DNA of 64,000 nt from Gemmatimonadota bacterium (GTDB lineage: Bacteria; Gemmatimonadota; Gemmatimonadetes; Gemmatimonadales; Gemmatimonadaceae): NCBI GenBank assembly GCA_023249305.1, contig JAHFCU010000003.1, positions 1-64,000 of the forward strand. Reading direction: 5' to 3'. A program made the translations under genes and the position numbers. Positions 52,366 through 64,000 of the stretch are shown here, piece by piece. A model generated the notes under the pieces. That model did no database searches. It saw only the letters and a list, made by a program, of their open reading frames with translations, and was not told the DNA's origin. How positions within the stretch are numbered: position 1 is the stretch's first letter; the number at the start of each line of letters is the position of its first letter.

Positions 52366-53589
52366 CTACTCGTAGCGGAGCGCGACGATGGGATCCATGA
52401 TTGCTGCGCGACGCGCGGGATAAACGCCGAAGATCACGCCGACCGCAGCGGAGAATCCAAAGGCGAGCGCGACCGCGGTGGATCCGACTTCCGTAGTCCA
52501 TCCCATGACCTTTGTGAAGGCCGTGGCGCCGCCGGTGCCGACGAGAATGCCGATCGCGCCGCCGACGAGGCAGAGCACGACGGCCTCCACGAGAAACTGG
52601 AACATGATGTTCAGCCGCGTCGCGCCGAGCGCCTTGCGAATGCCGATCTCGCGAGTGCGCTCCGTGACGGAGACGAGCATGATGTTCATGATGCCGATGC
52701 CGCCGACGATCAGCGACACGGTCGCAATGCCCGCGAGCAAGAGCGAGAAGACCGCGGTCGTCTCGCCGAGCGTGTTGAGGAAGTCAGCCTGCGAGCGCGT
52801 GTTGAAGTCGTCGTCCTTGCCGGTGCGCAGGTGATGCTCGCGGCGCAAGATCTTCTGAATCTCCGCCATCGTCTCGGGGATGTCGTCTTCAGACGGCGAC
52901 AGCACGCTGATAGAGCGCACGCGGTTCTGCCCGAGCACGCGGAATCGCGCTGTCGTGATCGGGATCAGGACCTGGTCATCCGGGTTGTTGAATGGCGAGG
53001 CCTGGCCCTTTGACTTGTACACGCCAACCACCGTGAACTGGATGCCGCGTATGCGCACGTTCTCACCGATGATCGCTTCGGCCGTCTGCAGGCCAAGGTT
53101 CTCAATCACCGTCGGACCGACGACGGCCAAACGCTGCCGCGAGTTATCCTCGGCGGTCGTAAAGAACCGTCCAGCCGCCATCTCGTACTTTCGCACCTGA
53201 GGGAAGTTCGAGGTCACGCCGACGATCTGCGTGTTGGTGTTCTTGTTCAGATACTGGACCTGCAGATTGCCCGACATCTCGGGCTGCACGGCGAGGATAT
53301 TCTCGCCGCGATCTTCGAGCGCTTTCGCATCCTCGAGCGTCAGGCGGGCGCTGCCGAACCCCGTGCGCACGCCGCCCTGGCCCATGGCCTGGCCCGGACT
53401 CACCGTAAGCAACGTCGTACCGAGGGCCGCAATGCGGTCATTGACAGCCTTCTGCGCGCCCCGGCCGAGCGCGACCACGGCGATCACCGCGGCGACACCG
53501 ATCACGATGCCGAGCATCGTGAGCAGCGAGCGCAGCTTGTTCGCACGCAGTGCGCCCAGCGCGACCATGATGGTTTCGCCGAAGAGCAT
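52366..53589 (-). CDS. MacB-type ABC transporter permease (no ATPase domain)
   Basis: A 407-residue permease with the FtsX/MacB layout: TM1 (about 18-43, RSLLTMLGIVIGVAAVIAVV), a large periplasmic MacB core domain (about 45-270) and three C-terminal helices (LLLAGIATVSLIVGGIGIMNIML, FLVEAVVLCLVGGAIGILVG and ALAFGFSAAVGVIFGVYPA). The ERTREIGIRKALGATRLNI coupling segment is conserved. Unlike full MacB, the N-terminal nucleotide-binding domain is missing, and no ATPase gene is adjacent. It is the last gene of the operon with the MacA-like adaptor and TolC-like factor, so the ATPase must be encoded elsewhere. Confidence 0.9.
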   Translation of the reverse strand: MLFGETIMVALGALRANKLRSLLTMLGIVIGVAAVIAVVALGRGAQKAVNDRIAALGTTLLTVSPGQAMGQGGVRTGFGSARLTLEDAKALEDRGENILAVQPEMSGNLQVQYLNKNTNTQIVGVTSNFPQVRKYEMAAGRFFTTAEDNSRQRLAVVGPTVIENLGLQTAEAIIGENVRIRGIQFTVVGVYKSKGQASPFNNPDDQVLIPITTARFRVLGQNRVRSISVLSPSEDDIPETMAEIQKILRREHHLRTGKDDDFNTRSQADFLNTLGETTAVFSLLLAGIATVSLIVGGIGIMNIMLVSVTERTREIGIRKALGATRLNIMFQFLVEAVVLCLVGGAIGILVGTGGATAFTKVMGWTTEVGSTAVALAFGFSAAVGVIFGVYPARRAAIMDPIVALRYE

Positions 53590-53592
53590 CGC

Positions 53593-55464
53593 TTAGCCCC
53601 GCGGACGAGCCGTCGCGCCGCCGCTCTGCTGACCGCCGCCCGGCTGACCGCCGCCACCTGGGCCGCCGCCCGGCGCACGTCCGCCACCCGGGCCACCCGA
53701 GGCGCCGCCGAGCGGGCTGCCGCCGCCCATCATTTGGCGGGCACGATCATTGGCCGCCTGACGCTGCGCTTGCATCGCCGCCGCGGAGAGGAGCGCGACG
53801 CGCTCCCCTTCCTTGAGTCCATCGAGTACTTCGGTGTAGTCGTAGTTCGCCACACCGAGGCGAACGACGCGAGGCTCCCACGCGGAGTCAGCCTTGAGCA
53901 CGAATACCAAGCCTGAGCGACTGCGGTTGCGCAAGCCCGGCGCCTGCGGCACTTCGACGGCGCGACCAGGCTGGTCGCCGCGGCTGCTCTGGCCACTGGC
54001 TTGCGCTCCGCCTGCGCGGCCACCGGTGCGTTCACCCGAGCGACCGCCGGCCGTGCCACCCCCCGCGCCACCCCCCGCTCCACGCATACCACCGCCCATA
54101 CCGCCGCCATTGCCGCCTTCGCGGCGGCGGCACCCGCCCGCGATGCGCGAGTCAACACCGAGCTTTGTGTACAGCTCCTGCATCTGCGTGAACATCGCGC
54201 GCCGATCGGCGTCCGGATTGCGCAGCTGCTCGCGCATGGCATCGAGCTGCTTGGCCACCGCCGGCTGCTTCTTGAGCGCCTCGGTCACCTTCTGGCAATC
54301 GGCATCGGTGACTTCGACTTGCTGGAAACCGCCTCCCCCTTGGCGATCAGCGCTCTGCGGGAGAAGGTCCACTTCACCGTTGCTGGTTTGCGGGCGGCCG
54401 CTCTGACCCCCCTGGCCGCCGCGAGTGCCACCCTGGCCGCCGCGGTTGCCGCCCTGACCACCGCCATTGAATCCGCCGAAGCCGCCGCCCATGCTCGACC
54501 GAAGCTGCGCGCGCACGCTGTCGGGATTGAGGTTGAGGAGCGGCGCGATCGTTTGGACTTCACGCACGTTGCGAATGGCGTCGTTCGGAATTGCGAGCAC
54601 GCTCGTGCGGCGATCCACGAGCACGGACGCCTCACCGTTCATGCCCGGCTTGAGCAGCCCGTCTTCATTGCTGAGTGAAATAAGCACGGGGAACATCGTC
54701 ACGTTCTGCTGGACGACAGCCTGCGGCTCGACCTTCTCGACCTTGCCGTGGAACGGGCGGTCGGGGAAGGCATCCACCGTCACCGTGGCTTCCTGTCCCT
54801 TCACGATCTGTCCGATATCGGTCTCGTTGACGAGCGCCCGCGCGCGGACGAGCGACAGATCCGCCATCTTGAGGATGGTGGAGCCGCCGCCGACGGACGA
54901 TGTGCCAGCCTGAATGACCTGACCGAGCGAGACCGTCTTCTCGATGACCGTTCCCAGCACGGGGGCACGCACCGTGGCATCCTCGAGACGCTGCTGTGCG
55001 AGGTCAAGCGCCGTCCTGGCGCGAACGAACGACGCCTGCGAATTGGCGTAGTCAAGGTTTGCCGTTTCATTCTCGGTGGCGGTAATGATGCGCTGCTTGA
55101 ACAACTCGTCCGAGCGCTTCTTCTGCGCCGTGGACGTGGTCAGCTTTGCCTGCGCCGCGTCGAAGTCGGCCTTCGACTGCTCCGCCGCATTGGTGAGGTC
55201 GCGCGTGTCGATCTGGACGATGAGATCACCGGGCTTGACGTTCGAGCCGACTTCGACGGTCATCTTCGTGATCTGACCCGACGCCGTCTTGGATTTCACC
55301 TCAACAACCGTGATCGGCTCGATGATTGCGGTGGCGGTGGCGTCCACGACGACGTCGCGGCGCGTGACGGGGGCGGTCTGGATCGCGATCGGTTTTTCGG
55401 ACTTCTTGCTGCAGGCGACAAGAGTCGACAGCGCGGCGAGGGCAAAGAGGAATCGGCGATTCAC
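53593..55464 (-). CDS. MacA/HlyD-type periplasmic adaptor lipoprotein with Gly-rich insertions
   Basis: A 623-residue membrane-fusion protein (usual length about 380) with lipobox LSTLVAC (C18). It contains the biotinyl-lipoyl halves (SKTASGQITKMTVEVGSNVKPGD and ATVRAPVLGTVIEKTVSLGQ) around an alpha-hairpin (about 85-150), then the beta-barrel (TVDAFPDRPFHGKVEKV). Three low-complexity Gly-rich stretches lie near residues 325-355, 445-475 and 575-623, with a helical insert between the first two. GTG 55464 has GGAG upstream and gives the lipoprotein signal. It links the MacB-like permease to the TolC-like channel. Confidence 0.87.
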   Translation of the reverse strand: MNRRFLFALAALSTLVACSKKSEKPIAIQTAPVTRRDVVVDATATAIIEPITVVEVKSKTASGQITKMTVEVGSNVKPGDLIVQIDTRDLTNAAEQSKADFDAAQAKLTTSTAQKKRSDELFKQRIITATENETANLDYANSQASFVRARTALDLAQQRLEDATVRAPVLGTVIEKTVSLGQVIQAGTSSVGGGSTILKMADLSLVRARALVNETDIGQIVKGQEATVTVDAFPDRPFHGKVEKVEPQAVVQQNVTMFPVLISLSNEDGLLKPGMNGEASVLVDRRTSVLAIPNDAIRNVREVQTIAPLLNLNPDSVRAQLRSSMGGGFGGFNGGGQGGNRGGQGGTRGGQGGQSGRPQTSNGEVDLLPQSADRQGGGGFQQVEVTDADCQKVTEALKKQPAVAKQLDAMREQLRNPDADRRAMFTQMQELYTKLGVDSRIAGGCRRREGGNGGGMGGGMRGAGGGAGGGTAGGRSGERTGGRAGGAQASGQSSRGDQPGRAVEVPQAPGLRNRSRSGLVFVLKADSAWEPRVVRLGVANYDYTEVLDGLKEGERVALLSAAAMQAQRQAANDRARQMMGGGSPLGGASGGPGGGRAPGGGPGGGGQPGGGQQSGGATARPRG

Positions 55465-55499
55465 GAGGTGCTCCGAATGGGACGTCGGTCGGTGTCTGG

Positions 55500-56804
55500 T
55501 CACTTGAGGTCGCGGCCGATGAGGGCCTCAACCTGGGCCTTGGCGATGCGGGCGTCGTAGCGCGCCTGAATCAGCGCGGCACGAGCCTGGTCGAGCGTCG
55601 TCTGCGAGGTCAGCAGGTCGAGCAGGACGGAGGCGCCGAGGGCGTACCGCTGCTGCTGCACGCGCAGGTCCTCCTCGGCCGCGTCGACGGTGGCCAGCTG
55701 GATGGCGACACGCTGCTCGGCGGTGCGGAAGGCACCGAAGTACTGCACCAGCGACTGCTGCTGCGCGAGCTTCGCGTCGCGCAGCGCGGCCATGGCGTTG
55801 TCCTCCGCCACAGTCGACCGCATGAGATTCTCTTCCCGCGTGAAGTTGTTGAACAGCGTCCAGCTCAACGTGAGGCGGAAACTCGTCTGCTTGGGGATGC
55901 GGCCGCTGCCGAAGTCGAACGTTTCGGCGGTGTTGTTGCCGCTCAAGCTGTACGACGAGGAGACGGTAGGCAGGTACGGGGTGCGCGAGGCCCTGCGGGC
56001 GGCCTGCGCCGACACGAGCGCAGCTTCTGCGGAGCGAACGGTCGGACCCTGCATGGCCAGCGCGTTGAGGGCTGCACTGTCGAGCACGATGCGACCCATC
56101 TCTGCGGTATCGGCCGGCGTGGCGGTGACCACGTCCGTGGAGCCGATCAATCGCGAGAGGGCGGCGTTCGCGACGCGCAAGTTGTTCTGCGCGGTGAGCA
56201 GTGCGAGCCGCGCGTTGCCGACCTGGATGGCGCTGCGCAGCGAATCACTCTTCGTGGCCGCGCCGGCGTGAACCTTCGCCGTCGACGACTTGAGCTGTTC
56301 GGCGGCCTGCTCGAGCTGCCGCCGGGCGGCGCTCTCGCTCTCGCGAGCGGCGAGCACGGCGAAGTACTGCTGCTTCACTTGTAGCGCCACGTTGTAGAGT
56401 TGGGACGTCTCGCTTGCATCGGCCGCGTCAACATTGGCCTGCGCCGACTTGAGGTTGTACCAGCGGCGGCCGCCGTCGAAGAGCTCGAGGTTGGTGGAAA
56501 GCCCACGCGAGTACGACCACGGGACGCCGCTGTACGGCACCAGCTTTCCCTGGAAGAACGTCTCGCCGCCTTGGCGTGAGCCGGAGCCGTTGGCGGAGAG
56601 CGAGGGCAGGTATTGACCATACGCCGAGCGCACGGCGGCACTGGTGGTGCGCAGCGCGTTGCGCGCCGTGACGGCCGCCGGGTTGTTGCGCTGCGCGAGG
56701 CGCACGGCCTCGTCCAGCGGAATGGGGCGTGCGCCATCGCCCGCCGGCTGCTGGGCGGCGAGGGCGAACGGCACGGCGATCAAGAACAAGGAAACACGCG
56801 TCAT
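55500..56804 (-). CDS. TolC-family outer-membrane efflux factor
   Basis: A 434-residue outer-membrane factor with signal peptide (MTRVSLFLIAVPFALAAQQ). Two similar halves each carry long helical hairpins and short beta strands, as in TolC: PLDEAVRLAQRNNPAAVTARN in the first half, TVRSAEAALVSAQAARRASRTPYLPTV in the second, ending with LLTSQTTLDQARAALIQARYDARIAKAQVEALIG. It forms the exit duct of the tripartite system with the adaptor and permease downstream. It starts 3 bases after the LTxxQ protein gene. Confidence 0.9.
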   Translation of the reverse strand: MTRVSLFLIAVPFALAAQQPAGDGARPIPLDEAVRLAQRNNPAAVTARNALRTTSAAVRSAYGQYLPSLSANGSGSRQGGETFFQGKLVPYSGVPWSYSRGLSTNLELFDGGRRWYNLKSAQANVDAADASETSQLYNVALQVKQQYFAVLAARESESAARRQLEQAAEQLKSSTAKVHAGAATKSDSLRSAIQVGNARLALLTAQNNLRVANAALSRLIGSTDVVTATPADTAEMGRIVLDSAALNALAMQGPTVRSAEAALVSAQAARRASRTPYLPTVSSSYSLSGNNTAETFDFGSGRIPKQTSFRLTLSWTLFNNFTREENLMRSTVAEDNAMAALRDAKLAQQQSLVQYFGAFRTAEQRVAIQLATVDAAEEDLRVQQQRYALGASVLLDLLTSQTTLDQARAALIQARYDARIAKAQVEALIGRDLK

Positions 56805-56807
56805 GTC

Positions 56808-57173
56808 CTATTTCTTCTCCTGCGCGCGGGCTTTCTGGTCCCGCTGCATCTGTTCATACACGCGCTGTTGGTTCGGCGTGAGGACCGCCGAGATCTTCTG
56901 CCGCGCGAAGGCGCGGATCGAGTCGAGCTGCGAACGAATGGGCACGACGACGACCGACTCCGCCCGGAACCGCGAATCGAGAATGCTATCCACGGCGGAC
57001 CGCTGATCCGTTGTGAGCTTCAGATCCTTGGCAAACCGGTCCCGCATGGCACGGCCGGACGTCCGCGTGGTGCTGTTGGCCAGCAGCAGCCGATCAACGG
57101 CGACACCGACCGCGGCGCCAGCCACTGCCGCCGCGAGGTAGAACGCCAAGGCCAGTTCTTTGGTTCGCGTCAT
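56808..57173 (-). CDS. Membrane-anchored LTxxQ (Spy/CpxP/CnrX-like) protein
   Basis: A 121-residue protein with one N-terminal helix (LALAFYLAAAVAGAAVGVAV) and a periplasmic helical hairpin with two LTxxQ motifs (KLTTDQRSAVDSIL and LTPNQQRVYEQM). This layout matches CnrX/CpxP-type periplasmic sensors of metal or envelope stress that act on an anti-sigma factor. It lies between an anti-sigma-like gene (30 bases upstream) and the TolC-like gene (3 bases downstream). No Cys or His metal ligands are evident, so the stimulus need not be a metal. Confidence 0.78.
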   Translation of the reverse strand: MTRTKELALAFYLAAAVAGAAVGVAVDRLLLANSTTRTSGRAMRDRFAKDLKLTTDQRSAVDSILDSRFRAESVVVVPIRSQLDSIRAFARQKISAVLTPNQQRVYEQMQRDQKARAQEKK

Positions 57174-57203
57174 GGAATGTTCAGGAGAGGGGAGCGCGGC
57201 GCG

Positions 57204-57584
57204 CTACCGCCCGTTGATGTAGTTGTAGGTGGTCTGCCGATCAGTTTGCCCTTCGCGAATGGCAATGGTCGGGCCACTGGCGGCTGGGCCGACAACCGAC
57301 TCATACGCCATCTCGCGCTGTTCGGCGCGCGAGCGCAGGAAGAGGGAACCGGCAACGATGAGGGCGAAGCCGGCAGCGATCAAGCCAAGGCGCACCCACT
57401 GCGTGGGCACGGCCCACCAGAAGTCGAGCGACTCGCCCGCGGCGATGCGGTCCATGATGCGCTGCTCCAGCGCGCTCCAGTATCCGGGCGCGTCGGGTGC
57501 GGCGTACATCTGCCGCAGGGCGGTCGTCAGTTCCGCATCACCCTCGTCGGACACAAGGTGCAACGGCGTGTGGTCATTGGTCAT
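57204..57584 (-). CDS. Single-TM anti-sigma-like protein
   Basis: A 126-residue protein with a cytosolic N-terminus (residues 1-60; TALRQMYAAPDAPGYWSALEQRIMDRI), one membrane helix (about 62-83, WVRLGLIAAGFALIVAGSLFL) and a short periplasmic tail. It overlaps the sigma factor stop by 4 bases (ATGA), the usual arrangement of an ECF sigma factor and its anti-sigma. It lacks the zinc-binding HxxxCxxC motif, so it belongs to a non-ZAS type. It should hold the sigma factor at the membrane until the LTxxQ partner reports a signal. Confidence 0.75.
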   Translation of the reverse strand: MTNDHTPLHLVSDEGDAELTTALRQMYAAPDAPGYWSALEQRIMDRIAAGESLDFWWAVPTQWVRLGLIAAGFALIVAGSLFLRSRAEQREMAYESVVGPAASGPTIAIREGQTDRQTTYNYINGR

Positions 57585-58192
57585 TGGGAACTCCGCAGCT
57601 GTTCAAGAAGCCGGCGCAGCGCAGACCGCGCATAGTGCAGGTCAGATCGTGCCGTCCCCTCAGGAATGCCAAGTAGCTTGCCGATCTCGGAATGCTTGAA
57701 TCCTTCCACATCGTGCAGCACGATCACCGCGCGCTGCCGCTCGGGCAGGCGCTCGAGTGCCGCCCGCAGACGCAGGCGCAATTCGTCAGATTCCGCGGGA
57801 TCGCGGAACGGTGAAGCGATGGTCTCGGGCAGATCGTCAGCATCGCGCACCTTCCGCCGGCGCGTGATGTCGAGCGACGCGTTGGCGACGATGCGATGCA
57901 GCCACGCGCCGAAGGCTTGGTCGGGTAGGAAGCGGTGCAGGGCGCGGTAGGCGTGGAGGAACGCATCCTGCACCGCGTCTTCCGCATCCTCGTGCGTCAT
58001 CACAATTGCGCGCGCCACCGCATAGGCCCGCCGCTGGTGGCGGCGCACCAATTCGGAGAACGCCTCGAGCTCACCGCGCTGGGCGGAAAGCACGAGCGCC
58101 TTCTCGTCGTCGGGGCGGTCAGGCGTCGTCACGCGTCGGCGGATGTAGCCGGACAGCGTCACGGACGCCGGACGCAGGGCAATGGTGTTCAT
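57581..58192 (-). CDS. ECF RNA polymerase sigma factor (efflux operon)
   Basis: A 203-residue sigma factor. Region 2 is at about 40-110 (ELVRRHQRRAYAVARAIVMT, DAEDAVQDAFLHAYRALHRF), region 4 at about 140-195 (LERLPERQRAVIVLHDVEGFKHSEIGKLLGIPEGTARSDLHYARSALR). ATG 58192 was chosen; a longer frame to 58252 adds only polar residues. It is the first gene of the operon that encodes anti-sigma, LTxxQ protein, TolC-like factor, adaptor and permease, and probably activates its own promoter. Confidence 0.9.
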   Translation of the reverse strand: MNTIALRPASVTLSGYIRRRVTTPDRPDDEKALVLSAQRGELEAFSELVRRHQRRAYAVARAIVMTHEDAEDAVQDAFLHAYRALHRFLPDQAFGAWLHRIVANASLDITRRRKVRDADDLPETIASPFRDPAESDELRLRLRAALERLPERQRAVIVLHDVEGFKHSEIGKLLGIPEGTARSDLHYARSALRRLLEQLRSSQ

Positions 58193-58262
58193 CGCGTCTC
58201 GTCTGGAGGGGCACCCCTTGAGACGCGCGACGGGCCGAGAACGTTGACGCAACAGGGCGCAC

Positions 58263-58844
58263 CTAAGCCCCCGCCAGTCCGAGGGGCACCGCGTTGGCCT
58301 TCAGCGCCTCGACCACGAAGGCAATGTGCACGTCGAGCGCAACGCCCAGTTCCGCGGCGCCGTGCAAGATGTCCTCGCGCGAAACACCCCGGGCGAAGGC
58401 CTTGTCCTTCATCTTCTTTCGCACGGACGAGGGCTCGAGATCGAGAATGCTCTTGCTGGGCCGCACGTACGTGGCTGCCGTGATGAGGCCGCACAACTCG
58501 TCCACGGCAAAGAGCGACTTGGCCATCGAGGACTCGCGCGTCGAGTGGGTGTAGGCGGCGTGCCCCATGATTGCGGCGCAAATCTCCTCGGAGACGCCAA
58601 GGCCGCGCAGGTGCCGCACGCCATGCGACGGATGTTCATCGGTGGCCGAGTGTGCGTCGTTGGGGAACCGCTCGTAGTCAAAGTCGTGAAGCAGGCCGGC
58701 GAGACCCCAGGTCTCCTCATCCGCACCGAACTTGCGCGCATACGCGCGCATCGCCGTCTCGACAGCGAGCATGTGCTTGCGGAGCGATTCGCTCTGCGTC
58801 CATTCGCAGACGAGAGTCCAGGCAGCCGTGCGATCAAGAGACAT
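58263..58844 (-). CDS. HD-domain phosphohydrolase-like protein
   Basis: A 193-residue cytosolic protein with an HD metal-binding fold: first His H24 (RKHMLAVETAM), H53-D54 in LLHDFDYERFP, later His in HPSHGVRHL and GHAAYTHSTR. The HDIG-like layout suggests a metal-dependent phosphohydrolase, often on nucleotides; the substrate is unknown. It stands between two similar ECF operons, 70 bases upstream of the sigma factor start of one and 110 bases after the stop of the other. Confidence 0.83.
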   Translation of the reverse strand: MSLDRTAAWTLVCEWTQSESLRKHMLAVETAMRAYARKFGADEETWGLAGLLHDFDYERFPNDAHSATDEHPSHGVRHLRGLGVSEEICAAIMGHAAYTHSTRESSMAKSLFAVDELCGLITAATYVRPSKSILDLEPSSVRKKMKDKAFARGVSREDILHGAAELGVALDVHIAFVVEALKANAVPLGLAGA

Positions 58845-58954: not shown

Positions 58955-61900
58955 CTACGGAATCCGACGGCCGCTCGCTCCGCCAGCAGCGCCGCCGGCG
59001 CCGCCGGTGCTTCCATCGGGCCGTCGTCCCCCCTGAGCGCCGCCCGGTCGCAGGGACGGATTCTTCACCGACTCGGGCACCTCCGCCCACTGGTCGGCCG
59101 TCAGCGTCTTTTGAATGGCTTGCGTAGCCTGCAGGTAGTTGTTGCGCGCTTCCTGCAGGATGGGCTGGAGCTTGGGGAAGAGCGTCTGCAAATCGCCGCC
59201 GCTCTTCTCCTGCTTCTTCATCTCCGCCTCAACGCGCTTCGTGATATCCTGAGTCTTCGCGTCCAGCGAATCGCCGATTGCCTTGATCGTCGCGATCTGC
59301 GCGGGGGTCAGCTTCAGGATGTCCTTCATGTCCATCAGCGGCGTGACCGGATTCGGCGCGAGGCGGCGCACGATGGCGCGGAAGTCCATCGCCGGCCGGT
59401 TGTTGTTGCCGCTGGCGTTCAACATGCCCTCGAGCAGTTGGCGCTGGCGGTCCACGCCGACCTGCAGACGCGCGGTCAGCGAGATCTGGAACGGATTGCG
59501 CAGGGCCGAACGCGCGAGCGCGTTACTGCCGAAGCGCTCGTTGACGGTGTATCGGAACCGATTCGCGACGGGATCGAAGCCGCGCACGTAGAGCAGCGTG
59601 TTGTCCACGAATGCGGGCTGGCCCCATCCACGGAGGTGGTCGGCGCCGTGCAGCAGCTGATCGAGACCGGCCAGCGGATTGTTGAGCCCCACCTGTAGTT
59701 GCAGGCGGCGGCCGATGGTAGCGCCCAGCTGCGGGCGGAAGTTGAGCTGCAGGTCGAGCGACGTGGTCCACGGGGCGCGGCAGCTATTGCGGCCGGCGAC
59801 GCTGTTGATTTGCGCGAGCAGGCAGCGGTGTGCCGCGCCAGGCGCCTCGGCGAGCAGGCGCTGCATGCCGTTCGACAGCGCAGTGTCGCCGGCCGACGTC
59901 GGGTCGAAGATGAACGCGCGATCGTTGCGCGCGCCGTCCCCGTTGATGTCACCGGCCACACGCGGTGTGTATGGCTGGCCGGACTGCACACGCAGCACGC
60001 CCGTGACGTCGAGCCATGGCCGCGCGAGCCACGTCACTGAACCATTGATGCCGTGCCGGCGCTCGAGGTCGCTCGTCCACGTGGGAAGCGCGTCGGGATC
60101 GCCGGCCGTGGTCGCCGAAGAGAAACCGCCGGCCGCGCTCCCGCCCGAGAACGACGACTGGTCGGTGGATCGCGTGGCCGTGTACGACAGGTTCCACACG
60201 AGCTGGCGCAGCGAGTTGCCGCTGACACTTGCCGTGATCTGCGTCGTGTGCGAGGCGAGTGGCGACGCCACGAGGAACACGTAGCCATACGCGGGGTCGA
60301 TGCGCGACGCCGTGAGCGTCGTCGCGCCAGTCGTCGGGATGATCGTTGACGCCGGCACGAACACCGGTCTGTTCCCCTCGCTCGAGAGCCGGAACTGCGG
60401 CACCTGCGACAGGTTGAGATCGGTCACGCCATAAAGGCTCGTTCCCATCGAGTACGTCGCGTCAATGCTCGCGTTGTATCGCTGAAGGAAGCGCTTGGAG
60501 AGGCCAAGGGATCCGCGAATCGAACGCGGCGTCGCAAAGTTCGATGCAAACGCCGTGACATTGGGACGCGTGCGGCTCAGTGGCACACTCGGACCGGAGC
60601 CGTCGGCGCACGTGGTCGGGATGGTCGAGAAGTCGTGCAGGTACGATGCCCAGTCGGGCGTCGGCACCGCGGCACCGACGCAGACGAGCTGCGTCTCGCC
60701 GCCGGGCAAACCCGTGGCGTCAATGGCCGACGAGAACAACTGCGTCGGCGCCCGCCCGCGGAATTCGCCAATGCCGCCACGAACAATCCACGGCTGCGGA
60801 ATCTGCGGCTGCTGTTGCTGCGGGTTCTGTCCGCCGAGCATACCGAGCAAGCCGCCCATGCCACCGGCACCGCCGCCGGGGCCGCCTGCGAACCCGCCGC
60901 CACCGAATCCACCGCCGCCACCGCCGCGACCCTCGCCACCGCGCGCTTCGCCACCGCGCGCTTCGCCACCGCCGCCGCCCTGAGCGCCCGGACGGTTCGC
61001 GCGACGTCCGGTGTCGGGCGGCAAGCCGAGGGTGAGCGTGAAGCCGAGGCGCGGACTCACGCGCACGTCCGATGGAATGCGATCGGTGCGCAAGCCGAAC
61101 TTCGTGCTAATGTCCGGATTATACGCTGGCTGGCCGTCAATGCCGCTTCCTTCACCGCGAATACCATAGGTGAGTTGGAACGCGCGATTGGGACGCCAGA
61201 TATCGCCGAAGTACACCGCCGCCGTCACTGCACCACCGGTGCGTTGCGCCGGCGCGAACGACCGCGTGAACTGGCTCGGGCGATTTGCGTCGAGGTCGGT
61301 GAGTGACTGGAACTGGAAGTTGCCCGACCGATTCGCGCCGGCCGTCGTGCGGAACCCGGAGCGGTTGATGAGTTCACCCAGCTTCCAACGATGCTTGCCG
61401 CCGCCGGAGAGCCAGGACGTTTCGTTGGTGACCTCAAGCGCGGTGGAGGCGTTGTCGTTGGGTAGTGCGCCGTTGCCTCCGAAGTCGAGGCCGGTGAGGC
61501 CCAACTGGCCCGTGGCGAGGTTGCTCGCGACATAGACGCGCGCTTCGGGGAGCCGGAGATACGGATTCGCGCCACGCGTGTCGAGCGAATACGAGCCCTT
61601 GAACTCGTTCAGGAACTGTCCCATCACCGACGACAGCGACGCAAGCCCGCCGACCGTGCTCCCCCTCTGCTCGCCGGCGTGCGTCGGCACACTCTGCGCC
61701 GAACTGCGGAAGCCGTCGAGCAGACTCCCCGCAATGTTGCCGCGGATGGACAGTGAATGCGCTTCCGTCAGCTGCTGGTCGAGGCGCACGATTCCGGTGA
61801 GGTTGTCCGTCGTCCGATCATCGGGAACGAGCGCGTTGCGCGCTGGCAGGCCGTAGCGCTGCAGCAAGCTCAGGAACCGCGCCGCCGAATCGGGCTGCAC

Positions 61901-62851
61901 ATTCAGCGCCTCGAGCGCCTGCGGGCCTGCTCCGAGCAGTGACTGCAGCGCATCGAGGCGACGACGCACCTGGAAACTCGCGAACCAGAACGTCTGGTCC
62001 TTGGCGATGGGGCCGCCCAACCCGCCGCTCACCTGGTGCTGCGTGTACGCGCCGCTGAACGTCGTGCCGCTGTTGTCGCCGGTGGCGAACTCGAGATCCG
62101 GGTCGCGCAGCGCATACGAGAGCGAACCCGACAGGTCGTTCGTGCCGCCGCGCGTTGTGGTCGCCACCTGGCCGCCCGTGAACTGGCCGCGCGCGATATC
62201 GTACGTGCTGGTGATCACGCGCGTGCTGCGCACGGCCTCGGCCGGCACCGAACCGCCGAATGAGAGACCGTCGAGCGTCACTAGGTTCTGGTCAGCGCGC
62301 TGTCCGGCTACTGAGAATCCGGCCGACGACGTGTCGGTGCCCGTGATGCCGACAACGCCGGCCGCGAGCGAGGCGATCGCGTTCGGGTCGGATGCGTCAA
62401 TCGGAAGGCGCAGCAGTTGCTCTCCTGAGAGGGCGCGCTCCGTACTACCCGGCGTCGGCTGATTCTCGTTCGGTCGCGGGGTCTGCCGCGAACTCACGAT
62501 CACCGCACTGAGGGTCGTCGGCGAAAGGCGGAAATCGGCGACGAGGCGGTCTTCGTCGGACAGCCTGTTCAGGCTCACCGAGGCCGGCTGCAACCCGATG
62601 GCGCGTGCGGTCACGCGATACTGGCCGCCGCCATCGGGGAAGAGCAGGGTGTACTGACCCTTGTCGTTCGTTGTTCGCACGCGCGTGGTGCCCGTCTCGA
62701 TGGACATCACTTCGATGCGCGCGTTGGCAACCGGACGATTCTCGGTGTTGCGCACCACGCCGGTGATGATGTCCGTGCTGCTGCCGACCTGCGCCTCGGC
62801 AAACCGGGGCGCGAGCAGCAGGACGAGGGCCAGAAAGAGCTTGGATCGCAT
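58955..62851 (-). CDS. TonB-dependent-receptor-like outer-membrane protein with C-terminal LTxxQ domain
   Basis: A 1298-residue protein with signal peptide (to about 21). A carboxypeptidase-regulatory-like beta domain (about 24-105, TGVVRNTENRPVANARIEV) is followed by a plug-like domain (about 140-230) and a large outer-membrane beta-barrel (about 240-1150). A Gly-rich low-complexity loop lies at about 613-690. Unusually, the barrel is not at the end: residues about 1170-1255 form a helical LTxxQ domain (ILKLTPAQIATIK and KTLTADQWAEVPE), then a Gly-rich tail. It starts 18 bases after the LTxxQ gene of the operon. Confidence 0.88.
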   Translation of the reverse strand: MRSKLFLALVLLLAPRFAEAQVGSSTDIITGVVRNTENRPVANARIEVMSIETGTTRVRTTNDKGQYTLLFPDGGGQYRVTARAIGLQPASVSLNRLSDEDRLVADFRLSPTTLSAVIVSSRQTPRPNENQPTPGSTERALSGEQLLRLPIDASDPNAIASLAAGVVGITGTDTSSAGFSVAGQRADQNLVTLDGLSFGGSVPAEAVRSTRVITSTYDIARGQFTGGQVATTTRGGTNDLSGSLSYALRDPDLEFATGDNSGTTFSGAYTQHQVSGGLGGPIAKDQTFWFASFQVRRRLDALQSLLGAGPQALEALNVQPDSAARFLSLLQRYGLPARNALVPDDRTTDNLTGIVRLDQQLTEAHSLSIRGNIAGSLLDGFRSSAQSVPTHAGEQRGSTVGGLASLSSVMGQFLNEFKGSYSLDTRGANPYLRLPEARVYVASNLATGQLGLTGLDFGGNGALPNDNASTALEVTNETSWLSGGGKHRWKLGELINRSGFRTTAGANRSGNFQFQSLTDLDANRPSQFTRSFAPAQRTGGAVTAAVYFGDIWRPNRAFQLTYGIRGEGSGIDGQPAYNPDISTKFGLRTDRIPSDVRVSPRLGFTLTLGLPPDTGRRANRPGAQGGGGGEARGGEARGGEGRGGGGGGFGGGGFAGGPGGGAGGMGGLLGMLGGQNPQQQQPQIPQPWIVRGGIGEFRGRAPTQLFSSAIDATGLPGGETQLVCVGAAVPTPDWASYLHDFSTIPTTCADGSGPSVPLSRTRPNVTAFASNFATPRSIRGSLGLSKRFLQRYNASIDATYSMGTSLYGVTDLNLSQVPQFRLSSEGNRPVFVPASTIIPTTGATTLTASRIDPAYGYVFLVASPLASHTTQITASVSGNSLRQLVWNLSYTATRSTDQSSFSGGSAAGGFSSATTAGDPDALPTWTSDLERRHGINGSVTWLARPWLDVTGVLRVQSGQPYTPRVAGDINGDGARNDRAFIFDPTSAGDTALSNGMQRLLAEAPGAAHRCLLAQINSVAGRNSCRAPWTTSLDLQLNFRPQLGATIGRRLQLQVGLNNPLAGLDQLLHGADHLRGWGQPAFVDNTLLYVRGFDPVANRFRYTVNERFGSNALARSALRNPFQISLTARLQVGVDRQRQLLEGMLNASGNNNRPAMDFRAIVRRLAPNPVTPLMDMKDILKLTPAQIATIKAIGDSLDAKTQDITKRVEAEMKKQEKSGGDLQTLFPKLQPILQEARNNYLQATQAIQKTLTADQWAEVPESVKNPSLRPGGAQGGRRPDGSTGGAGGAAGGASGRRIP

Positions 62852-62869: not shown

Positions 62870-63379
62870 TTACGGTCGTGGCATGGGGGGACGGCCCCAA
62901 TCGCCCGGCCCGCGCTGCGGCGCGCCGTTGGGGAAGCGCTTCCGGAACTCAGCCTCCCGCCGTGCGCGCGCGGAATCGAGCAGGGCGCGCTGAGTTGGCG
63001 TGAGGATGCTGTCCATGGAGCGCTTGGTCTGCGCCATCAGCGAGTCAATGGCAGGCTGCGTGGATTGGCGAATCGAACGGAAGCCGTGCATCTGTCGCTC
63101 GATGAGCGTGTCAATGCGCACGGCCTGCTCCTCCGTGAGCTTGAGGTCCGCGCCGAGCATCGCGCTCGGTCGGCGCGGTGCGGGGTGGCGCTCCCCACGC
63201 GCCGCCATGCGCGAAGGCCAGATGCGCGGCCGCAGGACGGTGCGCTCGAGCGTCACGCCGGCGACGACGCCAGCGATAGCGACGATGATCAGGACGAGAA
63301 CGGCCAGCAGTCGCGGTGCGCGCGACGGTGCGTCCGGCACCGTATCATCTGCCGCGTTGAGATTGATGTTGTCGGTCAT
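62870..63379 (-). CDS. Membrane-anchored LTxxQ (Spy/CnrX-like) protein, second operon
   Basis: A 169-residue protein with a cytosolic N-terminus (about 1-22), one membrane helix (LLAVLVLIIVAIAGVVAGVTL, about 24-45), and a periplasmic helical hairpin with LTEEQAVRIDTLI and ILTPTQRALLDSARARR. A Pro/Gly/Arg-rich tail ends the protein. The design matches the LTxxQ gene at 56808-57173, and it sits in the same place of a similar operon, just before the outer-membrane protein gene. Its ATG overlaps the anti-sigma-like stop by 4 bases. Confidence 0.8.
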   Translation of the reverse strand: MTDNINLNAADDTVPDAPSRAPRLLAVLVLIIVAIAGVVAGVTLERTVLRPRIWPSRMAARGERHPAPRRPSAMLGADLKLTEEQAVRIDTLIERQMHGFRSIRQSTQPAIDSLMAQTKRSMDSILTPTQRALLDSARARREAEFRKRFPNGAPQRGPGDWGRPPMPRP

Positions 63380-63768
63380 CGCTCCACCGCCATAGCAATG
63401 AGGAACTCCGTAGAATCCGGGCCGACGACCGCGTCGGTCACTAACCGGCGCGACCCGCCGGCCACGGCGCCCTGCAGGTCACTCGACGCGGCGGCCTGCG
63501 CCGCGACCTCGGCTTCACTGCGCACCGAGCGGTTGAGGATCACGGCCGCAATCAGCGCCGCGGCGATCCCGATCGGTACGGCGGCGCGACCATAGCGCGC
63601 CACCCATCCGTACCACGGCGTATCCACGCGCTGCATCCGGTGCCGCCGTGTGGCGATCACGATGCGCTCGCGGAGCTGCTCCTCGCGCAGCAGCGCGCCG
63701 AGGGCCGGATCGCGCGGCGGATCCTGAGCGAGGTAGTCGTCGGTCGGGTTGAACTGATCGTTGCTCAT
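63376..63768 (-). CDS. Single-TM anti-sigma-like protein, second operon
   Basis: A 130-residue protein: acidic cytosolic N-terminus (DDYLAQDPPRDPALGALLREEQLRERI), membrane helix (about 58-78, AAVPIGIAAALIAAVIL), and a short periplasmic part (about 79-130). It overlaps the sigma factor upstream and the LTxxQ gene downstream by 4 bases each (ATGA), which forces a fixed ratio of the three proteins. No zinc motif. A longer frame from 63891 would lie inside the sigma factor gene in another frame, so ATG 63768 is used. Confidence 0.74.
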   Translation of the reverse strand: MSNDQFNPTDDYLAQDPPRDPALGALLREEQLRERIVIATRRHRMQRVDTPWYGWVARYGRAAVPIGIAAALIAAVILNRSVRSEAEVAAQAAASSDLQGAVAGGSRRLVTDAVVGPDSTEFLIAMAVER

Positions 63769-64000
63769 GCGTTCCCCTCGTCCCGCAGCGGTGCCAGCGC
63801 TGTACGCAGACTCTTCTTGGCCTGGTGCAGGTGCCACCGCACGTTTTCGGGCGTGAGGCCGAGGTGTTCGGCAATCTCGACGCCCTTCCATCCTTCCACT
63901 TCGAACAGCATCACGATCTCGCGTTGCCGCGGCGTCAGCGCCGCGAGCGCGGCGTCGAACCGCTCCCGCACTTCCTGTCGGATCAGAACCTCATCCGGCG
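63765..64000 (-). CDS. ECF RNA polymerase sigma factor, second operon (5' end outside window)
   Basis: The visible 78 codons are the C-terminal part of a sigma factor with region 4: LTPRQREIVMLFEVEGWKGVEIAEHLGLTPENVRWHLHQAKKSLRTAL. The frame stays open to the window edge (PDEVLIRQEVRERF), so the gene begins beyond 64000 and region 2 is not seen. It is the first gene known of the operon with the anti-sigma-like, LTxxQ and outer-membrane protein genes. Confidence 0.88.
   Translation of the reverse strand, partial: PDEVLIRQEVRERFDAALAALTPRQREIVMLFEVEGWKGVEIAEHLGLTPENVRWHLHQAKKSLRTALAPLRDEGNA

Follow-up and report, generated by a model that had tools for sequence, protein, structure and literature searches.

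Gene content and layout of the locus

The window analysed here is a stretch of 64,000 nucleotides, and its far end carries, on the minus strand, a set of genes that follow the order ECF sigma factor, anti-sigma-like protein, free LTxxQ protein and then receptor in the organism's own genome. The sigma factor gene (63765-64000) is cut by the window edge and encodes 196 amino acids in the genome sequence. The anti-sigma-like protein (63376-63891), recognised from its position and sequence, has one hydrophobic segment, a true start probably near 63768 and no Pfam match. The free LTxxQ protein (62870-63379; sequence and Pfam scan) has an N-terminal hydrophobic segment and a motif spacing of 45, and 18 bases separate the end of its gene from the start of the receptor gene. 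On the other side of the receptor lie an HD-domain-like protein (58263-58844, minus strand; recognised by eye), then a second set of ECF sigma, anti-sigma-like and LTxxQ genes (56808-58252, minus strand; LTxxQ motif spacing again 45) and, after that set, genes resembling a TolC-, HlyD- and MacB-type efflux system (52366-56804, also by eye).

The receptor gene (58955-62851) is an intact open reading frame of 1298 amino acids, and the reading frame, Pfam and fold matches describe its product, P0001, as an outer-membrane protein of the TonB-dependent-transporter type with a C-terminal LTxxQ domain (all P0001 features below lie on the same minus strand). The chain begins with a carboxypeptidase-regulatory-like domain (residues 29-109; 62525-62767; Pfam PF13620 CarboxypepD_reg, E 1.7e-13), and no STN-type Pfam domain, the N-terminal signalling domain of FecA/FoxA-type receptors, was matched in P0001 at E ≤ 1. 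The Pfam Plug model stays below its cut-off (E 0.052, 14.5 bits vs. 23.9), and a folded region precedes the barrel in the AlphaFold2 model. The beta-barrel region covers about residues 261-1132 (59456-62071, with an approximate start), as drawn from PF25183 OMP_b-brl_4 (E 1.4e-32) and the predicted strands. It is split by a Gly-rich insertion (residues 612-688; 60788-61018) that is predicted to be disordered (pLDDT about 30), is less than half covered in 39 of 57 relative rows, and is mostly absent or different in relatives.

CarboxypepD_reg, plug and barrel are shared with the carboxypeptidase-domain TonB-dependent transporters (OMP_b-brl_4, a class that we take to be Oar-like). The AlphaFold2 receptor model (residues 112-1298, 58 aligned sequences; pLDDT 81.5, pTM 0.77) found 6ofr as its best PDB match in Foldseek (E 4.2e-27), and TonB-dependent transporters, YddB and FusA included, head the 50 best of 165 matches at E ≤ 0.001. 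By its predicted plug and barrel fold, P0001 is of TonB-dependent-transporter type.

The last barrel strand (residues 1122-1132; 59456-59488), identified from the AlphaFold2 model and the ends of homologs, is also the endpoint of tail-less homologs. What follows in P0001 was described in the earlier note as a sensor-like tail of about 130 residues. A helical LTxxQ-type domain is indeed found there, although by Pfam and structure prediction it takes up only about 105 residues (1160-1265; 59057-59374), preceded by a variable linker and followed by a disordered end. In the alignment the linker (residues 1133-1159; 59375-59455) is variable in length and often Gly-rich among relatives; the equivalent of residues 1133-1166 measures 26-64 residues in 58 rows, with up to 51% Gly, which fits a tethered rather than a rigidly docked domain. 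The C-terminus (residues 1266-1298; 58958-59056) is rich in Gly, Arg and Pro, with low pLDDT over the last 32 residues, and such an end recurs in relatives with 8-46 residues. Relatives often close this end with RPP- or RRIP-like letters.

Sequence signature of the tail

The domain holds two motifs, LTPAQ (residues 1181-1185; 59297-59311) and LTADQ (residues 1250-1254; 59090-59104), which lie 69 residues apart. Scored alone (residues 1160-1265), the tail matches the Pfam LTXXQ family PF07813 just above the cut-off (E 2.8e-5, 25.2 bits vs. 24.3), while longer queries fall below it (24.0 bits for a 141-residue piece; 19.0 bits and E 0.0024 for the whole protein). Further barrel frames behave similarly, with six at 25.0-33.0 bits and five others at 18.1-20.2, below the cut-off. 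Among 44 homologous tails, LTXXQ is recognised in 31 (E ≤ 0.01), and 35 contain two L[TSDN]xxQ motifs at a spacing of 66-72 residues, as compared with 0.07% of composition-preserving shuffles. The intact frame, the motif pair and the Pfam score of the isolated tail thus bear out the first claim of the earlier note, that the barrel carries an LTxxQ tail after its last strand.

Two positions of the tail, L1181 and P1259, do not vary across 81 sequences, and Q1185 (96%), D1194, L1250, T1251, Q1254 and W1255 (99%, directly after the second motif) are kept at 94-99%. Over its length the domain varies more than the plug and barrel, as the mean identity to P0001 among 57 full-length relatives is 0.60 for the plug, 0.47 and 0.53 for the barrel halves, 0.36 for the LTxxQ domain and 0.29 for the linker; the domain is nevertheless covered in all 57 of these aligned sequences.

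With Spy and CpxP (PF07813) the tail shares the two LTxxQ motifs (69 apart vs. 73 in E. coli Spy and CpxP) and a predicted helical hairpin. It is also basic like Spy, with a median pI of 9.6 over the 81 tails (Spy 9.5, CpxP 6.1). It differs in being fused to a receptor, in its borderline Pfam score and in the conserved Trp and Pro after the second motif, of which the Trp is lacking in E. coli Spy and CpxP. The profile comparison proposed in the earlier note came out mixed: only the isolated tail scores just above the Pfam cut-off, and with Spy or CpxP as a single sequence hhalign covered no more than 17-18 residues, with low probability. When tail profiles were searched against PDB sequences, STV (5ihf) was the best match over a single stretch (E 0.0049 and 0.0087). 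Apolipoproteins were also among the best matches, so that part of the signal is that of a generic amphipathic helix.

Predicted structure and membrane side

In the AlphaFold2 model the strand at 1122-1132 is followed by helices at residues 1135-1147, 1157-1164, 1169-1174, 1183-1216, 1221-1249 and 1252-1257, and the tail folded alone (81 sequences; pLDDT 80.4, pTM 0.66) gives the long hairpin again. Both predictions agree with the expectation that the tail would be a helical hairpin placed after the last strand. Transporter barrels have both chain ends in the periplasm and, given its place after the last strand, the tail should be periplasmic by topology.

Foldseek with the tail alone returned no match at E ≤ 0.001. 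VIA listed CnrX (Z up to 8.6 over 101 residues), the Salmonella VirG-like protein STV (8.3, 21% identity; a separate chain of 116 residues in entry 5ihf), ZraP (7.2), NccX (7.1) and Spy (6.9), all of which must be read against the Z of 13 that helical models can reach without a clear relative. Designed bundles are on the same list, with Z up to 9.1. Given these bundles and the helical noise level, the predicted fold agrees with the Pfam call but is not proof of an LTxxQ fold.

The similarity to CnrX and NccX, which are sensors of ECF systems, raises the question of whether the tail could be a CnrX-type sensor of a metal or stress ligand that became fused to the receptor, with CnrX indeed among the best natural structural matches. 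CnrX is anchored in the inner membrane and binds metal through His, Glu and Met, whereas the tail is joined to a barrel and has no conserved His or Cys: in a survey of these two residues over 44 tails, no column held His or Cys in at least 8 rows, 30 tails had no His at all and Cys was found in none. A CnrX-like metal site is thus unlikely, and we regard the sensor explanation as highly improbable.

Distribution and origin of the tailed receptors

The tail region was present in all 43 further homologs that were first examined, and 172 of 249 genomes of the phylum have a tail-profile match at E ≤ 0.001. Among the best 150 of these matches, 137 lie in open frames of at least 900 amino acids; weaker matches beyond the best 150 may include free proteins. 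All 80 C-terminally complete receptors at the best 80 loci of 150 confirmed relatives match the tail profile, in a set that omits frames cut off at the 3' end, weak matches and five N-terminal fragments, and that favours tailed proteins because the query used for ranking included the tail. These receptors also bear on the trivial explanation that two genes were wrongly joined by annotation or assembly. The source is an incomplete, metagenome-like assembly (78.6% complete, 83 contigs), which could invite such an error, but a complete plasmid record of Gemmatirosa kalamazoonensis shows the same arrangement, as do the 80 receptors, and we rejected the artefact as having a negligible chance of being true.

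For a less biased census, barrels were collected with the Pfam family and P0001 in five genomes (G000, G016, G022, G023 and G230), and 20 places were sampled, which together with seven earlier loci gave 27 proteins. Weaker barrel matches fall outside this census, including G022:C1:3206263, G022:C1:3462396, G016:C2:4662919, G016:C4:937330, G023:C2:477577 and a second barrel of G230. The 11 proteins closest to P0001 (at least 336 bits) are all tailed, although only profile A1 (E 5e-9), not A7, picks up the tail of L176; the remaining 16 (at most 242 bits) are tail-less. In G230 neither a tail match nor a close barrel was found. Unlike P0001, the tail-less homologs, among them records from Spirosoma, Rufibacter, Parabacteroides and Granulicella, have no domain after the last strand: all 16 end at, or one or two residues from, P0001 position 1131, and the final residue is mostly Phe, Leu or Trp. 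These ends bear out the statement in the earlier note that such barrels usually finish with their last membrane strand.

A tree of 47 hand-chosen barrels separates the 31 tailed from the 16 tail-less proteins by one branch with support 1.0, and the P0001-type subfamily as such has low support (0.302). On these sequences, the simplest reading would be a single gain of the tail before the split of two tailed subfamilies. The own genome also holds a paralog of the second tailed subfamily (locus L041 on contig C37, 4115-7873, minus strand), the tail of which has no Trp after the second motif and carries a different C-terminal extension. We are highly confident, from sequence together with structure prediction, in the tailed architecture, its conservation, its position after the last strand and its one origin in a clade of Gemmatimonadota barrels.

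Gene neighbourhood and possible signalling

The genes upstream of the receptor suggest a second reading of the tail, as a signalling or docking domain that would contact the LTxxQ protein of the inner membrane or the anti-sigma factor and thereby link the state of the receptor to ECF sigma activity. The gene order is the same in six close relatives. Specifically, the downstream sigma set is present in all seven of the close relatives L090-L096 and the upstream set in all six whose contigs reach that far; in two of them the frames of the upstream LTxxQ protein and the receptor overlap by 4 bases. Elsewhere, a sigma gene comes immediately after the receptor gene in L106, L122 and L141, and an anti-sigma and/or LTxxQ match comes next; in L118 a sigma gene lies upstream, on the opposite strand. 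There is also a precedent in cell-surface signalling (CSS) receptors, in which, according to PMC11637429, the extra periplasmic domain contacts the anti-sigma factor. P0001 resembles CSS receptors of the FoxA type in having an extra, predicted periplasmic domain and, in this genus, ECF sigma and anti-sigma-like genes beside the receptor; in such receptors the extra domain is N-terminal (PMC11637429), whereas here it is C-terminal and of another fold.

Beyond the close relatives this arrangement is not the rule. Across the 79 loci, many of which are truncated on one side, an ECF sigma gene lies within 4 kb in 11, seven of them close relatives; among the 37 loci with 4 kb on both sides the count is six, and it falls to two of 33 when four close relatives are set aside. 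The own genome has 10 sigma region-2 matches in 2.5 Mb, a density at which about one in 33 would be expected by chance, and we rejected a general operon partnership between receptor and ECF sigma factor. The suggested tie to anti-sigma signalling thus fits the gene order of the close relatives and finds no support as a rule for the family.

Comparison with the LTxxQ proteins next door is similarly divided. The tail is of the same LTxxQ type, and hhalign links it to the second free LTxxQ family (probability 87, E 4e-6), but the link to the upstream family is weak (probability 60 over 18 columns only) and the motifs of the neighbours are spaced by 45 rather than 69, so the likeness emphasised in the earlier note is only partial. 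For these same reasons, descent of the tail from the neighbouring free LTxxQ genes is disfavoured. Taken with the scarcity of sigma genes at distant loci, we consider the signalling reading doubtful.

Other features of the neighbourhoods were recorded alongside. In six of the seven close relatives, the next gene downstream of the receptor encodes a relative of the HD-domain-like protein. A further secreted LTxxQ-like protein (HSPVGVVLDK...) is encoded upstream of the sigma gene in L090 (3689-4303), L092 (1118-1465), L093 (574-1362) and L095 (3099-4346); it was not seen in the own genome's locus L062, where a plus-strand gene is found instead. Three tail-less Bacteroidota homologs, L170, L171 and L172, adjoin phospholipase C, alkaline phosphatase and calcineurin-like phosphoesterase genes, which can be taken as a hint of a phosphate-containing substrate for the barrel family.

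Neighbour clustering found no partner gene that recurs widely beside the receptor, and its largest cluster was not trusted, since it rested on a rough gene call by GC position and on single linkage, which had joined scattered genes. This result weighs against a third reading, in which the tail would have a structural or oligomerisation role or would anchor a periplasmic or cell-wall partner specific to the phylum. The near-invariant Leu, Gln, Asp, Trp and Pro, with the Trp missing from E. coli Spy and CpxP, and the recurrent Gly/Arg/Pro-rich end would suit such a role, which we judge unlikely overall.

A proposed role for the tail

Because the tail is kept while the neighbourhood changes, it probably acts mainly on the receptor itself. 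Free Spy is reported to bind unfolded outer-membrane proteins, including LamB and OmpC, and to suppress their aggregation (PMC8546600). Together with the basic, LTxxQ-type and flexibly linked nature of the tail, this makes an attached holdase or guard the most plausible role, and we tentatively propose, at somewhat less than even confidence, that the tail is a tethered periplasmic holdase, guard or docking domain acting on its own receptor. The chain would continue past the last barrel strand into a tethered periplasmic LTxxQ domain (Spy/CpxP/CnrX/STV-like), which on its flexible linker would act on the receptor from the periplasmic side. During export and assembly the attached holdase may shield exposed barrel or plug segments; after assembly the tail could guard the periplasmic mouth or provide a docking site there, rather than act as a metal sensor. 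In the genus with the upstream sigma/anti-sigma/LTxxQ operon, the tail may additionally report to that system.

Some points argue against a holdase. Spy acts as an untethered dimer, and one attached copy of the tail may not form the cradle; the structural and profile links to LTxxQ proteins described above are not decisive; and the 16 distant homologs manage without a tail. The fuller picture, in which each receptor would chaperone itself and, where an ECF/LTxxQ operon is present, signal its state from the C-terminus in a mirror image of N-terminal CSS, is one that we hold to be questionable.

Significance

The barrel and the LTxxQ domain are each of known kinds, and what is unusual is their combination, in which a transporter barrel has its added domain at the C-terminal end. 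Transporters normally carry extra domains N-terminally, and the signal by which an outer-membrane barrel is recognised for assembly normally sits at the extreme C-terminus. Searches of the open-licence literature turned up no account of an LTxxQ-tailed receptor. LTxxQ matches in Gemmatimonadota are often receptors and not free stress proteins, and the tailed receptors may be clients with a built-in chaperone. A phylum-wide clade of receptors in which the barrel end is internal would also serve as a natural experiment on the assembly of such barrels.
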